Source of the DNA: a virus | DNA: 35,109 nt | Direction: 5' to 3' (one strand) | Virus record (IMG/VR): IMGVR_UViG_3300047388_000361 | Coordinates: 1 to 35,109 of that record | Part shown: piece by piece, positions 5,001 to 22,012 of the stretch | Layout of the letters: each line of letters starts with the position of its first letter | Position numbering within the stretch: position 1 is the first letter of the stretch | The notes under the pieces: generated by a model | Told to the model about the DNA's origin: nothing | The model's input: only the letters and a program-made list of their open reading frames with translations | The model's database searches: none | Program-made: the position numbers and the translations under genes

Positions 5001-5188
5001 AAATAGAATATGAAAAATGTAATCGTTGCAATTTAATAGCTAATGAAAATCAAAGATGGATAGCATATAAATTTATTAATGATGATAATGAACCAACTGT
5101 ACTTTGCATAAATTGTTATAAATTATTTGAGAAATTAAGAAAAAATACATATGAGAAAATGTTAAAAGAATTTTGTGAAAAACAATGA
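4997..5188 (+). CDS. small zinc-ribbon protein, 63 aa
   Basis: Two Cys pairs, CNRC near residue 8 and CINC near residue 34, are separated by a strand-rich segment (QRWIAYKFIN). This arrangement suggests one Zn2+ site. The C-terminal third is a charged helix. Start and stop both overlap the neighbours by four bases (ATGA), so it is coupled to the HTH and DUF551 genes. No specific family recognised. Confidence 0.68.
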   Translation: MKIEYEKCNRCNLIANENQRWIAYKFINDDNEPTVLCINCYKLFEKLRKNTYEKMLKEFCEKQ

Positions 5189-5394
5189 AATGGATAAGTG
5201 TTAAAGATAGATTGCCTGATTTGAATGAATTTCCTAGTGGTTATAAATCATCAAATTCATTATTGGGATATGATGATGGTTTTTATTCGATAGTGGAATA
5301 TACGGGTGATAACATTTGGCGTGATGAATATTCAAAGATGACTATAGTAACCCATTGGATGCCTTTGCCACCAAAACCAGAGACAGTTGATTAA
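5185..5394 (+). CDS. DUF551 protein
   Basis: Carries both DUF551 hallmarks: the start MKWISVKDRLPD and the end VTHWMPLPPKPE, over 69 residues, which is normal for the family. DUF551 is a widespread small phage domain of unknown function. The first 36 bases are nearly identical to those of the copy starting at 10174, so one is a recent duplicate of the other or both come from one pool. It overlaps the gene upstream by ATGA and closes the early cluster before a weak terminator. Confidence 0.85.
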   Translation: MKWISVKDRLPDLNEFPSGYKSSNSLLGYDDGFYSIVEYTGDNIWRDEYSKMTIVTHWMPLPPKPETVD

Positions 5395-9947: not shown

Positions 9948-10171
9948 AATGGATAAAATTCGAAGAACAGATACCTTCTATCGATGGTTATTCTTATCTT
10001 GTGGCTGGGTATGAATTCTTTGGCATAGCAACCTGGAAAAATCAAAGTGGATGGCAAGAAGTTTATATGGGAGATTTCCCCTTCGGTCCGAGATTTTATG
10101 AAAAAGATACGATAGATGGAACCAGAGCCATTATTAAATATTGGTGTGAATTGCCGGAGTATCCAGAATGA
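9944..10171 (+). CDS. DUF551-like protein, 75 aa
   Basis: MKWIKFEEQIPSIDGYSYLV at the start and YWCELPEYPE at the end match the DUF551 frame (MKWISV...LP ... HWMPLP.PE), with an internal W.....GW and several Gly turns. It is a diverged member; His before Trp is replaced by Trp-Cys. ATGA overlaps on both sides make it the first of two adjacent DUF551 genes. Function unknown. Confidence 0.72.
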   Translation: MKWIKFEEQIPSIDGYSYLVAGYEFFGIATWKNQSGWQEVYMGDFPFGPRFYEKDTIDGTRAIIKYWCELPEYPE

Positions 10172-10374
10172 AAATGAAATGGATTAGTGTTAAAGATAAA
10201 TTGCCTGATGAAAATGTATGGGTTTTATTATATGATAAAAAAAGTATCGTAATTGGCAGATTATATTTTTCAATTATGAAATGGGAAATATTAAATCATA
10301 GTACTACTAATGAAATTATATTTAAAAAAGACCGGGTATCTTTTTGGATGCCATTACCCGAGAAGCCAGAATGA
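10168..10374 (+). CDS. DUF551 protein, 68 aa
   Basis: MKMKWISVKDKLPDENVWV and the end VSFWMPLPEKPE are classical DUF551 signatures. Two in-frame ATGs, at 10168 and 10174, are possible; the first overlaps the upstream stop as ATGA. Its 5' end is nearly the same in DNA as the gene at 5185. Immediately after, in ATGA overlap, comes the dead stub of a further copy. Confidence 0.85.
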   Translation: MKMKWISVKDKLPDENVWVLLYDKKSIVIGRLYFSIMKWEILNHSTTNEIIFKKDRVSFWMPLPEKPE

Positions 10375-17738: not shown

Positions 17739-17773
17739 AAACTTAGTGCGTGTACCAATCTGAAAGGTTGTTC

Positions 17774-18100
17774 ATGAAAAGATTATACTTTGTATCATCT
17801 ATCTTATTTCCTTCCCTCGTTTTAATGGCAGCACCGCATCCAGAAATAAAAATACATAAAGAACAGGATATCTTTATCCAAGTTGGCGACGAACATCTTT
17901 ATAATCTCAAAGAAATAATCGCTGAGCTTGAAGAACATCCAAATATCATCGAAGAACAACCAATTGAACAACCCCCATTAACTTGTAGACAACGTTTAGC
18001 TAAAAATAGAAATGCCTTAATAATTGCTGGAGTGTCGTTGGGATCGGCTACTATAAGTGGTGCAGTTGCTTTGATAGTTCATTTTACTGCGCAGAGATAG
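17774..18100 (+). CDS. exported protein with C-terminal membrane anchor, 108 aa
   Basis: The ATG at 17774 (AAAGG in front) gives a proper signal peptide MKRLYFVSSILFPSLVLMAA. The middle is acidic and Pro-rich (EEHPNIIEEQPIEQPPLTC), and residues 84-104 form a transmembrane helix (ALIIAGVSLGSATISGAVAL) followed by IVHFTAQR. It diverges from the Gly/Ala-rich cassette, so both sides of the regulatory region encode exported proteins. Its last 28 nt, with the stop codon, recur at the end of the gene at 18308. No family recognised. Confidence 0.65.
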   Translation: MKRLYFVSSILFPSLVLMAAPHPEIKIHKEQDIFIQVGDEHLYNLKEIIAELEEHPNIIEEQPIEQPPLTCRQRLAKNRNALIIAGVSLGSATISGAVALIVHFTAQR

Positions 18101-18141: not shown

Positions 18142-18345
18142 GTGAAAATGTTTAAAATTTGTTCGGACTGCATAAAAGATTTACAAGGTCTTCGGTCGAG
18201 AGAAGAATCTAAATATAGAAGTTTATTATATCGACCTTCTTATATAAATTGTCCTAATAGACCTAGATGTTTTGATCAACCTGAACGTAGTAAACAAGAA
18301 GATATTGATGAATTGGAAAAAAGAAAAAGAACATCAACCAAATAA
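18142..18345 (+). CDS. small Cys-containing protein with intron-core-like segment, 67 aa
   Basis: GTG start at 18142 (AAGGAT well spaced) or ATG at 18148. It has CSDC near the start, CPNRPRC mid-way, then DQPERSKQEDIDELEKRKR. The DNA for QPERSKQED closely follows the segment of intron 2 (20089-20116) that encodes QPERSKRED and forms the ribozyme P7/P3 strand. The leader GTATACTG.TA...GCAACAA is also shared with intron 2 (19819-19855). I infer a decayed relative of the intron-2 reading frame. Protein function unknown. Confidence 0.45.
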   Translation: MKMFKICSDCIKDLQGLRSREESKYRSLLYRPSYINCPNRPRCFDQPERSKQEDIDELEKRKRTSTK

Positions 18346-18517
18346 AAGAGAATCTATCATATTTATAGAATACTCTGGAAAAATACATGCAGGCATATGG
18401 GAAGACCAAGTTTTCTTTCGTTATGATGAAGATGGAATTAATCCTATTCATGGTCCGGAAGTAGAATGGTGGATTGCACTTTCTGAAATCCCATTTCATT
18501 TTACTGCTCAAAGATAG
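18308..18517 (+). CDS. DUF551-like protein with exchanged C terminus, 69 aa
   Basis: From the ATG at 18308: MNWKKEKEHQPNKRESIIFI, then YSGKIHAGIWEDQVFF and EVEWWIALSEIP, matching the DUF551 scheme (MNWI...HWMPLPEPP). It then ends FHFTAQR instead of stopping, with DNA that is 26 of 28 identical to the end of the 17774 gene (18078-18105). It overlaps the frame at 18142 by 38 nt. A recombined DUF551 copy; function unknown. Confidence 0.55.
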   Translation: MNWKKEKEHQPNKRESIIFIEYSGKIHAGIWEDQVFFRYDEDGINPIHGPEVEWWIALSEIPFHFTAQR

Positions 18518-18522
18518 ATAGT
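18495..18522 (+). repeat. 28-nt copy of the 3' end at 18078-18105
   Basis: Begins TTCATTTTACTGCTCAAAGA and ends TAGATAGT; it differs from 18078-18105 at two positions. Both copies encode the last residues HFTAQR and a TAG stop of different genes. A third, looser likeness (TTAC.GCGCAAAGA) is at 19174-19187 beyond the HNH gene. Confidence 0.7.
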
Positions 18523-19142
18523 TATTTTCTTTTTCGGTTTAATAGATTTTCTTGGTGTGATATCCATCTGCAATTTCCTGGTGCATAATTTCCATCATTG
18601 TCTATGCGATCAAGTTCCATATTTTCAGGACGCTCACCCATGTCAGCAATAAAATTATTAAACTCTAGCCAAATCTCGCATACCTTTATTCCTCTTGCGC
18701 CATAATGTTTATAATTTGTATTATTAGGATTAGTACAACGTTGTATCATAGACTCCCACGTGGTATAAGTTTTACTATGAGCCATTTTATGTTTAGTTGA
18801 GCCACATGTTCTGCATGCTAAAGAATCTCCGAACCTGAGCCTTATAGCTTTTTGTGTTCTTACGAAACCGCATTCACATTGAACTATATAAGTTTTCCTT
18901 TTTTCTTCTGTTTTTATTTCTTGAACTATTGTCCATTTGCCGAATTTGTCACCAGATTTTATTTCTTGAGTTTTATACATACATTTTCTACAAGAAGTTG
19001 ATTTGGCTGCCTTTAGAATTTCTTCTCTTACTAAAAATATTGCCCCACAAACACATCTACATTGATATAATTTTCGATCTTTTATTCTTTGATTTTCAGA
19101 TATTATTTGCCAATTTCCATGCTTTGATCCAATTTCAAACAT
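18522..19142 (-). CDS. HNH homing endonuclease with tandem Zn-ribbon/DNA-binding repeats, 206 aa
   Basis: Start taken at ATG 19142 (MFEIGSKHGNWQIISENQ); 21 more residues are open upstream but lack a ribosome site. Two repeats, residues 2-54 and 60-114, each have GxKxGxW.I followed by CxCG and CxxC, a Cys-rich DNA-binding unit. Residues 121-206 are an HNH nuclease of the common phage type: H122, TTWESMIQRCTNP, YGARGIKVCEIW, MGERP, LDRIDNDGNYAPGNCRW. Such enzymes nick or cut DNA to spread themselves. No group I core surrounds it, so it appears free-standing, antisense to the neighbouring genes and only 180 nt upstream of the split capsid gene. Confidence 0.88.
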   Translation of the reverse strand: MFEIGSKHGNWQIISENQRIKDRKLYQCRCVCGAIFLVREEILKAAKSTSCRKCMYKTQEIKSGDKFGKWTIVQEIKTEEKRKTYIVQCECGFVRTQKAIRLRFGDSLACRTCGSTKHKMAHSKTYTTWESMIQRCTNPNNTNYKHYGARGIKVCEIWLEFNNFIADMGERPENMELDRIDNDGNYAPGNCRWISHQENLLNRKRK

Positions 19143-19161
19143 TGTTTTTCTTTCATTGTTT

Positions 19162-19287
19162 ATGTTATTATTCTTACGGCGCAAAGAGGCCATCGCCACC
19201 CTCAATAAAGACCCATCGTACGCAAATCGGGATTCGTACTCCGATGACGCAATGTTAGCCTCGTCAGCTTATAGTGTATCATCTTAG
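19162..19287 (+). pseudogene. orphan 41-codon frame, probably the 3' remnant of an interrupted gene
   Basis: The plus strand reads RRKEAIATLNKDPSYANRDS then YSDDAMLASSAYSVSS and stops at 19287. An ATG at 19162 exists but has no ribosome site. The peptide looks like a genuine C terminus, and its 5' side abuts the HNH gene, so it may be the tail of a gene split or displaced by the endonuclease. I found no matching front half upstream. Confidence 0.35.
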
Positions 19288-19324: not shown

Positions 19325-22012
19325 ATGTCAATAACGACTACCAGCTCTTTGCCAGCCCCTGTGCAGCAATCCTTCAGCTATAAATTGCTGAGTGTTCCAG
19401 TTCCGAACATGATCCATTAATAACACTTGTGGATGTAAAATCTTCTCTGATTGAGGTGGAAGCGCTAACGAATAAGACGAGCGTGACACTGCGGAAGCAC
19501 ACGCACCGTAACAGACTGAGCGAGAAGACGCCTAAGGGCGATGCGACAGTCGGGTCTTTATGGAGACATAGAGAGTTGGGAATAACAAGACCAACCGCCT
19601 AGTAATAGGTCTTAAAGTAACAGTTTGAAGATCCCTGCCATGAAGAAACAGATGCCCCGTAATGGTGGTACAACTCTTCGTATGCGTAGGTACAACCCAT
19701 TAAACACAGCGATGGTTCCACTAGGGAACTCAGGTGTTACTCCCCCGCCACAAAATCTAACTGCCGTGGATAGACTTTATGTCCACGTTAAATCTTCTCT
19801 GATAGACTTGGAAACCGTAGTATACTGTTAGAAAAGTATAACCGGCAACAAGGGGCAAGATTATGGAATTAAATTGGATAGATCCGCGAGATAAATTACC
19901 CGATGAAGGGCAATTGGTAATTTTGAATCATGAAGGGCATAATTTTTATATTGCCACTTATAAAAAGCATGAAGATTATCAAAATGGAATTTTCGTTTTA
20001 AATGAAGAAGATGATTTTATTCCATGTAAGCTTCGGAAATGTGATTATATCCCGATATCCAATTCAAATGATATATTCAATAATCAGCCTGAACGTAGCA
20101 AGCGAGAAGACTTAGACTGCAATAATTGCAAAGAAATTGTTAGGTTGATGAAATATGAATTATCTCCCAAAACATTAGCACTTATTGATATATCTAAGAT
20201 GCGGTGCTCTGAACATTGTGGAAACACAGTGAGGGAAGCTAGATAAACTTCCTCGCCTAGAGAAATCTAGGTCACAAAAGTAACAGAATTGATAGATGCT
20301 AAGATTTCGTTTTATGGAACGTACGTGACCATCAATGAACAAGTCACGCTACAGAACCAAGACCCTAAAATGGATGGGGTCTATAAATTTTCTCTGATTG
20401 ACTTGGAAGCCTACGGCATTTGCTAAGGTGACAGGGGCCAAGGATGAGATTTAAACATTATGTTTCATAGGATGAAGATGCCAGCGAGAATTAAGTTTAC
20501 GAATAGATTCAAGACACTCTTGACGAATAGCTATAGCTTCAGCAGAAAGCTTATTGCTACCCAATTGCGTGTTATAGGTCTTTCTGAATTTAATCATGAT
20601 TTCGCATTGTTCTTTTTTGATAACCAAATATGGAAGCAATTGTTCGCACAGATCCAACAAGCGATCTCCGGTAGCTGTCCAAGTGAAAACTTCTCTCTCG
20701 AACTTTCTGCTAGAAGTGGATCGACAATGAGCAGAAGAAGTTCCACTAAAAACAGTGTCAATCCAATCGAGCAATCTTACATCAGTGTTATCGATTTTAA
20801 GGAGCCCTCTATAATGTTCAGTGACGTAACCGTCACCAGCTTTCTTGGGCAACTTACACATAAAGAAACAACCTTCTCCATCGACAATTCCAGCCATATA
20901 AGCAAGATCAATTGGTCTGTATTCGGCAGGAACATAATCTTTAGATCTTTTATAGTATTTTCTTCTTTCTTGCATAGTATCCTTAACAAAGTTAAGCAGT
21001 ATTACTATATAAGTATAAATGAAGCAGAACTATTTGTCCAGGCTGAACGACTAAGTGAGAAAACCCTATTTAGGGATGCGATAGTCTGACCTCCAATCGA
21101 AAGTTGGAGAGGTGAATCCGAAGAGGTTTGCCCGCCTAGAAATAGGTCACAAAAGTAACAGAATTGGTCCTTAACGAATGTGCTGCACGTCTTGGTGTTT
21201 CTCTTCGTCAAACCGAAGATCAACTTACACGCGATATGTTAGCTTCTACAGCTTCATTTATCAACTGTACAGGTGGTGTTAATGGCGATGTTCCTACTGA
21301 AATTACACGTTCTGATGTTGATACTATTGTTCGTGCATTGTTAAACAACAACGCATACACAATTATGGATAACATCGAGGGTAAACTCTTTGCCCTCATT
21401 AAATTTTCTCTGATTGACTTGGAACCCGTAGCGTAAGAGCCGGAAACAGGGCGGAAGGCACAAGCCACCGTGAGAGACTGAGTGAGAAAACACCGAAAGG
21501 TGATGCGACAGTCCGAACTCTAGAGGAAACCTAGAGAGATAGGCAGAAATGACTTATCCGGTAGAATTAAATTCTATTTGTAACAAAATTTGGAAGATAA
21601 ATTTGGTACAGCTCCTGTTCGTGATGCGTACTTCGCATTATGCTCAACACAGCTTACTGGTAACTTAGATAACGTCGCTGGCTTTATCCAAAAGAACCAA
21701 TATCCTGCACCTATGAACGCTCTTCGTTCAGAATGGGGCGCAATTGGGAACCTTCGTTTCCTTATATCATCTATTGGTTCAGTATCTGCTAATGCTTCAT
21801 CTCTTGGCGCAGATGTGTATAACATCTTCTGTGTTGGTATGGAAGCTTATGCATGTATTGAGCAAGATGGTTATAGCGCAAGCTTTATTTATCGTCCACC
21901 TATATATGATGGCCCATTGGCGCTTAATGCTTCAGTTGGCTATAAATTCGCTGAAGTGCCACGCATCACTAACGATCTGTGGGTATTAAATCTTCGCGCA
22001 ACACTAGCTTAA
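19325..22012 (+). CDS. major capsid protein (N4-gp56/P22-coat-like), split by four group I introns
   Basis: Five exons: 19325-19417, 19628-19771, 20292-20366, 21167-21382, 21593-22012; 948 nt, 315 residues, all junctions in phase 0. Exon 1 has AAGGAAA and ends PVPNMIH; exon 2 runs KIPAMKKQMP...LTAVD; exon 3 IDAKISFYGTYVTINEQ...QDP; exon 4 VLNECAARLGVSL...MDNIEG; exon 5 EDKFGTAPVRDAYF...LNLRATLA. Joined, they give the expected order for this coat family (GVTPP.QNLTAVD, GTYVTINEQVTL, TEDQLTRDML, EITRSDVDTI, SEWGAIGNLRFLISS, YNIF, AEVPRI.NDLW.LNLRA). Hundreds of copies form the shell. Unspliced mRNA gives only 31 residues, because intron 1 starts with TAATAA. The next virion gene follows 9 nt later. 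Confidence 0.93.
19418..19627 (+). ncRNA. group I intron 1 (210 nt, no ORF)
   Basis: 5' site: exon ATCCAT pairs with GTGGAT in the intron, with U.G at the cut. P10: CTT just before it pairs with exon 2 AAG. P3: TCTTCTC/GAGAAGA. P7: GACTG/CAGTC in GTAACAGACTG and GATGCGACAGTC. P8: CGCC-TAAG-GGCG. P9: TCTTTATG-GAGA-CATAGAGA. It ends AACAGTTTG, the terminal G expected. At 210 nt it is near the lower size limit of active group I introns. Confidence 0.9.
19772..20291 (+). ncRNA. group I intron 2 (520 nt, contains a DUF551-like ORF)
   Basis: 5' site: exon GTGGAT pairs with intron GTCCAC (U.G at the cut). P10: TAT with exon 3 ATA. P3: TCTTCTC/GAGAAGA. P7: AGCA/TGCT in GAACGTAGCAAGCGAG and GATGCGGTGCTC. 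P8: CTTAG/CTAAG with a 75-nt loop. P9: CATTGTG-GAAA-CACAGTG. It ends GTAACAGAATTG. The reading frame 19863-20246 covers the core from P6 through P9. Confidence 0.88.
19863..20246 (+). CDS. intron-2 reading frame: DUF551-like front fused to ribozyme-encoded tail, 127 aa
   Basis: Residues 1-70 resemble DUF551: MELNWIDPRDKLPDEGQLVI, internal YIATYKK, and a final CDYIPISN in place of HWMPLP. Residues 78-127 (QPERSKREDLDCNNC ... SKMRCSEHCGNTVREAR) are encoded by the catalytic core itself: R strand, P8 loop, S strand and P9. The peptide therefore ends where the ribozyme must fold. GGGGCAAG precedes the ATG. No endonuclease motif is seen, although the Cys/His pattern C..C...C..H could bind metal. 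Whether the protein helps splicing, acts otherwise, or is just tolerated is unknown. Confidence 0.6.
   Translation: MELNWIDPRDKLPDEGQLVILNHEGHNFYIATYKKHEDYQNGIFVLNEEDDFIPCKLRKCDYIPISNSNDIFNNQPERSKREDLDCNNCKEIVRLMKYELSPKTLALIDISKMRCSEHCGNTVREAR
20367..21166 (+). ncRNA. group I intron 3 (800 nt, antisense LAGLIDADG ORF)
   Basis: 5' site: exon AGACCCT pairs with intron GGGGTCT (U.G at the cut). P10: GGAT with exon 4 GTCC. P3: TTTTCTC/GAGAAAA. P7: GACTA/TAGTC in GAACGACTAAG and GATGCGATAGTC. P8: CCCT-ATTT-AGGG. P9: CTCCAA/TTGGAG. It ends GTAACAGAATTG. The endonuclease gene lies between the P4-P6 region and P7, on the other strand. Confidence 0.92.
20451..20975 (-). CDS. LAGLIDADG homing endonuclease, antisense in intron 3
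   Basis: 174 residues with AAGGA 5 nt before the ATG. Residues 24-37, LAYMAGIVDGEGCF, are the single LAGLIDADG motif with catalytic acid E34. The saddle strands follow (YRGLLKIDNTDVRLLDWI, FTWTATGDRLLDLCEQLLPY, CEIMIKFRKT). One-motif enzymes act as dimers on near-palindromic sites and drive intron homing into empty alleles. It is transcribed against the capsid gene, so it needs its own promoter and is not exposed during capsid translation. Length is normal for the family. Confidence 0.92.
   Translation of the reverse strand: MQERRKYYKRSKDYVPAEYRPIDLAYMAGIVDGEGCFFMCKLPKKAGDGYVTEHYRGLLKIDNTDVRLLDWIDTVFSGTSSAHCRSTSSRKFEREVFTWTATGDRLLDLCEQLLPYLVIKKEQCEIMIKFRKTYNTQLGSNKLSAEAIAIRQECLESIRKLNSRWHLHPMKHNV
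21383..21592 (+). ncRNA. group I intron 4 (210 nt, no ORF)
   Basis: 5' site: exon GAGGGT pairs with intron GCCCTC (U.G at the cut). P10: TCTTT with exon 5 GAAGA. P3: TTTTCTC/GAGAAAA. P7: GACTG/CAGTC. P8: CACC-GAAA-GGTG. P9: CTCTAG/CTAGAG. It ends AACAAAATTTG. Its P3-P4 strand TTTTCTCTGATTGACTTGGA is the same as that of intron 3. Confidence 0.92.

Follow-up and report, generated by a model that had tools for sequence, protein, structure and literature searches.

The DNA considered here, hereafter the window, is the whole of IMG/VR virus record IMGVR_UViG_3300047388_000361 (35,109 bp, classed linear), and our subject is its capsid gene, interrupted four times between positions 19325 and 22012. 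The gene set around this locus is of the small tailed phage type: a terminase gene and a P22-type portal gene (Pfam, E 1.6e-60) come first, followed downstream, in the structural block, by the capsid gene and tail-type genes. The capsid gene is almost certainly split by four related group I introns, the removal of which would yield a coat protein of 315 residues. Its anatomy, the empty alleles of its relatives, the conserved and covarying structure of the insertions and their recurrence at many sites are direct observations. All exons and insertions read on the plus strand. Exon 1 (19325-19417, 93 nt; residues 1-31), which in relatives is continuous with exon 2 (19628-19771, 144 nt; residues 32-79), is separated from it after codon 31 by intron 1 (19418-19627, 210 nt), devoid of any open reading frame (ORF). 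Intron 2 (19772-20291, 520 nt) follows codon 79 and carries an ORF of 127 aa in the same orientation (19863-20246). After exon 3, a mere 75 nt (20292-20366; residues 80-104), intron 3 (20367-21166, 800 nt) is inserted behind codon 104 and harbours, antisense to the capsid gene, a 174-aa ORF for a LAGLIDADG-type homing endonuclease (20451-20975, minus strand). Exon 4 (21167-21382, 216 nt; residues 105-176), intron 4 (21383-21592, 210 nt, after codon 176, again ORF-less) and exon 5 (21593-22012, 420 nt; residues 177-315 and the stop codon) complete the locus. An earlier interpretation made from the letters alone (the sequence-only reading) had proposed five exons and insertions of 210, 520, 800 and 210 nt, and its coordinates and lengths were reproduced exactly.

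Excision of the four insertions leaves a single frame of 315 codons and a stop, the coat protein which that reading had predicted. The spliced product corresponds to the major head protein family PHROG 1357 (E 1.2e-31); it reaches E 1.1e-5 and 26.3 bits with Pfam PF25209, slightly below the cut-off of 27, and its identity to annotated capsid proteins from phage isolates is 23-26%. Judged by these matches and by its place among the structural genes, the interrupted gene encodes a phage major capsid protein. A separate intact coat gene, named by the sequence-only reading as a finding that would refute its claim, was looked for, and the record, possibly incomplete, contains no second capsid gene.

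Each insertion is preceded by a U, ends in a G and can pair with both flanking exons, as had been claimed, and this holds in four cases out of four. The P1 helices, with U.G at each 5' splice site, are 6, 7, 7 and 6 bp long in introns 1 to 4 (AUCCAU/GUGGAU, CGUGGAU/GUCCACG, AGACCCU/GGGGUCU and GAGGGU/GCCCUC), and the P10 helices 3, 5, 4 and 5 bp (AAG/CUU, AUAGA/UUUAU, GUCC/GGAU and GAAGA/UCUUU). A P1 of such length is met downstream of only 1.4-3.4% of the T positions of the window, so that its presence at four sites out of four is not a matter of chance. When IMG/VR was searched with the spliced protein, the 80 top-ranking relatives, with identities of up to 96%, were all uninterrupted at the four sites of the window; in 73 of them the gene has no intron of this family at all, and the other seven have one at another site. 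At every junction five relatives were inspected, and the reading frame was continuous in all. An assembly artefact uniting pieces of different phages might be suspected from the fact that the window is one metagenomic contig only, but the same sites and the same architecture are present in many independent contigs, while the boundaries are base-exact, each with its site-specific P1 and P10; the probability of such an artefact is negligible.

The fold was analysed in a structure alignment of 31 short introns from this capsid gene, to which the window contributed two. These introns had been chosen in part by their U and G ends and their P1, helices P3 to P9 playing no part in the choice. Taking P1, P3, P4, P5, P6, P7, P8, P9, P9.1 and P9.2 together, 93.2% of the cells are paired, against 39-48% when the partner strand is slid. 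Of the 49 pairs, 40 show changes on both sides, where shuffling gives a mean of 29.9; covariation scores 0.569, compared with a shuffled mean of 0.175 and none of 500 shuffles scoring as high. Kinship alone can beat shuffles, and what is persuasive is the slid control together with the size of the effect. In the core, with its P3/P7 pseudoknot, 99.5% of cells are paired in P3 and 100% in P4, P6, P7 and P8, with double-sided changes in each. The G-C pair of P7 that forms the guanosine-binding site is found in 31 introns out of 31, and the U.G of P1 in all 27 alignment rows where P1 is aligned; in introns of the intron 2 type, P7 contains one additional bulged base. From aligned homologous introns a covariance model was constructed, which in the window matches the four introns and nothing else. 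Both 210-nt introns of the window belonged to its training set (172.7 bits for intron 1, 199.3 bits for intron 4), whereas the 520- and 800-nt introns did not; these are matched as two halves flanking their ORFs (50.3 and 59.8 bits in intron 2, 54.8 and 114.5 bits in intron 3). Empty-site alleles, P1 and P10 in every case and covarying helices from P1 to P9.2 all uphold the claim of the sequence-only reading that the insertions are group I introns.

Other kinds of intervening sequence must be weighed against these data. Inteins do occur in phage genes, group II introns might be invoked, and in gene 60 of phage T4 the ribosome skips 50 nt (PMC5009743). In the window, in-frame stops lie 0, 57, 57 and 51 nt into introns 1 to 4, which excludes inteins; skipping is hard to reconcile with lengths of 210-800 nt and a P3/P7 core that covaries; and the preceding U, the terminal G, P1 and P10 are traits of group I rather than group II introns. 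That the insertions belong to any of these other classes is scarcely credible. A less extreme view is that they are true group I introns, of which one or more no longer splice, the contig coming from a defective phage. The window is a single metagenomic record, and the two long introns score lower with the covariance model, a consequence of their ORFs. By contrast, every exon is open and conserved, with up to 96% protein identity to relatives, P1, P10 and the core helices are all intact, the structural genes flanking the capsid locus are open frames, and capsid genes with several introns are common among relatives. A decayed copy is very unlikely, if somewhat less so than the previous alternatives.

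Several points weigh against splicing by group I introns as we propose it. In the relatives, the U and G ends and P1 are not independent evidence, as they served as selection criteria. The case is built from DNA sequence, and the record is a metagenomic contig rather than an isolate; a host look-up in GTDB returned four matches scattered over unrelated metagenome-assembled genomes (MAGs). The Rfam model RF00028, with which the sequence-only reading had suggested scanning, has no match in the record at E 10 and misses the introns of the window, and neither the whole window nor the 2.75-kb region gave a group I match when scanned with Rfam. The same RF00028 search does match control genomes, which indicates simply that the curated model lacks sensitivity for this subgroup.

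If group I splicing is retained, each intron would fold as a ribozyme within the capsid transcript. P1 would display the U.G pair at the 5' splice site, P7 would hold first the G cofactor and later the terminal G of the intron, and P10 would position the 3' exon; excision of all introns would then give the single coat protein. The introns would be mobile elements, intron 3 with its endonuclease, intron 2 with a cargo of another kind and introns 1 and 4 with none, and the capsid gene would be the preferred location of this ribozyme family in the lineage. Splicing, self-catalysis and present-day mobility are the parts of this account that we infer.

The cargo of the long introns deserves comment. 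The intron 3 ORF has the motif YMAGIVDGEG and matches PHROG 5046 (E 7.6e-25), a family labelled HNH endonuclease; with Pfam LAGLIDADG_1 it stays below the cut-off (E 0.008). The intron 2 ORF has no Pfam or PHROG match of its own. It has a DUF551-like start, and its frame continues through the ribozyme core, which it translates as QPERSKRED...MRCSEHCGNTV. Many mid-size introns of relatives carry differing short ORFs that share the core-encoded QPERSKRED, often followed by MRCSEHCGNTV, and Pfam recognises DUF551 in two of seven such ORFs tested. Small cargo ORFs other than endonucleases (DUF551-like, Cys-rich) thus run on through the ribozyme core, and this is why unrelated proteins share the same peptides. 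Outside the capsid gene, a small ORF of the window (18142-18345, plus strand) contains FDQPERSKQED, resembling the core-encoded peptide; it is perhaps cargo escaped from an intron, or an intron relic. Two free-standing DUF551 genes lie at 5185-5394 and 10168-10374 (plus strand), and the product of the latter is similar to the beginning of the intron 2 ORF (52% over 21 aa), a likeness suggesting that introns and genome have exchanged cargo. Immediately upstream of the capsid gene, a free-standing HNH endonuclease gene occupies the opposite strand (18522-19205, minus; PHROG 374, E 5e-57). Further upstream, two adjacent ORFs (17750-18100 and 18272-18517, plus strand) end in the identical C-terminal peptide HFTAQR, a possible short repeat.

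Introns of this kind are widespread in the lineage. Scans with intron patterns collected about 100 capsid loci (numbered L below), in which boundaries were fitted by protein continuity, U and G ends and P1; as this fit rewards U, G and P1, the resulting list of sites relies chiefly on the protein join. It comprises 103 confident introns at about 29 codon/phase sites, with all phases represented. In the window all four insertions are in phase 0, as the sequence-only reading had noted and the coordinates confirm; that this might be meaningful was considered and rejected in favour of chance, relatives' introns using every phase. Several genes have four introns, and one (L110) has five. A full-length protein query puts intron-free genes at the top of the ranking, and the census of intron frequency used instead a 48-residue query, a stretch mostly free of introns, which gave a sample not chosen for introns. 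At least one intron was present in 35 of the 80 capsid genes so sampled, a figure that may be slightly low as sites 261, 269 and 273 fall within the query stretch. Across complete capsid loci, one core motif was counted 146 times within the capsid span and twice beyond it, a ratio that is not unbiased because some of these loci were retrieved by the intron pattern. Members of this ribozyme family are also found in a capsid gene of an unrelated kind (PHROG 283; L090, L120, L127, L148 and L168), and they interrupt a gene for a portal protein and one for a ribonucleotide reductase (L125 and L102, respectively). In a quick tree without support values, introns from the same site often, not always, cluster, a pattern that fits homing with occasional jumps.

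Relatives of the window, though not the window itself, also have much smaller inserts that lack a ribozyme core. After capsid residue Gly88, 20 were found initially, their positions set by protein alignment, and about 60 after a further scan, in which a loose DNA pattern gave mostly unrelated matches and a longer one succeeded (examples at codon 88 are L225, positions 2799-2826, L165, L187 and L236). In the filtered set of 55, these inserts are 28-53 nt long, and 44 have lengths not divisible by three. The last base is G in all 55; the scan pattern demanded it, but the first 20 had it anyway and the later scan lost none for lacking it. The 5' exon UACGGU pairs with GCCGUA of the insert as P1, and the variants UUCGGU/GCCGAA and UAUGGU/GCCAUA are compensatory. 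A P10 is formed between the insert and the synonymous third base of the following Thr codon in 55 cases out of 55, with all four Watson-Crick combinations represented. A third helix joins the insert, in nearly every case, to an exon segment that ends a few nt from the P1 strand of the next intron (codon 96, 104 or 116); in L146, L434 and L494 the best helix is weaker or a different one, and some third helices, taken singly, are no better than those of shuffled inserts. A downstream P1 and core were found by script in 37 of the 55 loci, and by eye the other 18 all appear to have a downstream intron, except L431, which meets the contig edge. L172 has a full-size intron at this very codon, and for this reason the Gly88 inserts look like internally deleted intron derivatives. 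Still smaller inserts of 4-5 nt (UACG, UUCG, UAUG, UAAUG) break the frame behind Arg118, with an intron following at codon 144 (L284 near 2523, L258 near 1416, L116 at codon 118, L093 near 9552, and L152). Here pairing is possible between the 5' exon and the stretch of exon immediately before the codon 144 intron, and this segment just upstream of the next intron was the only candidate guide found.

The Gly88 inserts may be satellite introns, excised by the neighbouring ribozyme, which is the interpretation we prefer. We would give even chances to the proposition that a ribozyme removes its own intron and also an upstream core-less satellite, be it the 28-53 nt after Gly88 or the 4-5 nt after Arg118, a natural case of foreign-intron excision. 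The Gly88 satellite would be presented to it through the satellite's P1 and P10, together with the helix with the exon segment abutting the ribozyme's P1. The arrangement would possibly act as an addiction device, because a capsid gene that lost only the ribozyme intron would be left with a broken frame. Translational bypassing, as in T4 gene 60, is disfavoured as an explanation of the mini-inserts: a landing codon matching GGU is absent, in 55 of 55 the insert pairs with the third base of the codon at which translation would resume, and the third helix follows the position of the downstream intron. To be fair, the T4 insert likewise follows a Gly codon, with its 50 nt, and is perhaps a degenerate group I intron; it has matched GGA take-off and landing codons, whereas the mini-inserts end in NNG without a matched codon and keep P1, P10 and the terminal G (PMC5009743). 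Satellite excision has a closer counterpart in the engineered group I spliceozyme, also a ribozyme excising an intron not its own, except that spliceozymes are designed and act in trans (PMC4094466).

Phage genes with group I introns are known in several systems. The capsid intron of mycobacteriophage LittleE, a phage unrelated to that of the window, is likely group I, with a preceding U, a terminal G and a LAGLIDADG ORF on the bottom strand; it is a single intron of 819 bp, the splicing of which was proven by RT-PCR and protein sequencing (PMC3706429). Phage Twort has three introns in one gene, according to a title cited in PMC11878797, and in the Bastillevirinae polymerase and terminase genes likewise contain several group I introns, up to three per gene, capsid genes being unmentioned in that source. 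Jug phages, with genomes of 360-402 kb, also have small group I introns (about 206 nt) at very high density, distributed over many genes, and RNA reads support the splicing of 37 of 76 (PMC12363816). The closest parallel is OLRF01000054, a cMAG of the crAss-like Zeta group, where the capsid gene is in five fragments and three of four spacers have group I-type domains (PMC7886860). These are large gut phages with introns in many genes, recognised by endonuclease domains, whereas the introns found in the 35-kb record are confined to the capsid gene, and two of them are ORF-less and were revealed by structure and empty alleles. The sequence-only reading had called four introns in such a gene exceptional: this stands against most phages, and fails both within the lineage, where 35 of 80 sampled genes are split, and in view of the published five-fragment gene. 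As far as the open-access literature shows, what is new is how densely introns populate a single small gene throughout a widespread lineage, together with the satellites.

ORF callers and RF00028 miss these introns, and as a result the capsid gene of an environmental phage probably often appears in annotations as a set of fragments or as broken. The mini-inserts raise the question whether a natural ribozyme can splice an intron other than its own. The lineage further offers a natural series, a single small gene with zero to five introns, in which the gain, loss and cost of introns can be studied. If spliced as proposed, the most abundant protein of the virion would rely on four splicing events, a situation that is ordinary in this lineage.
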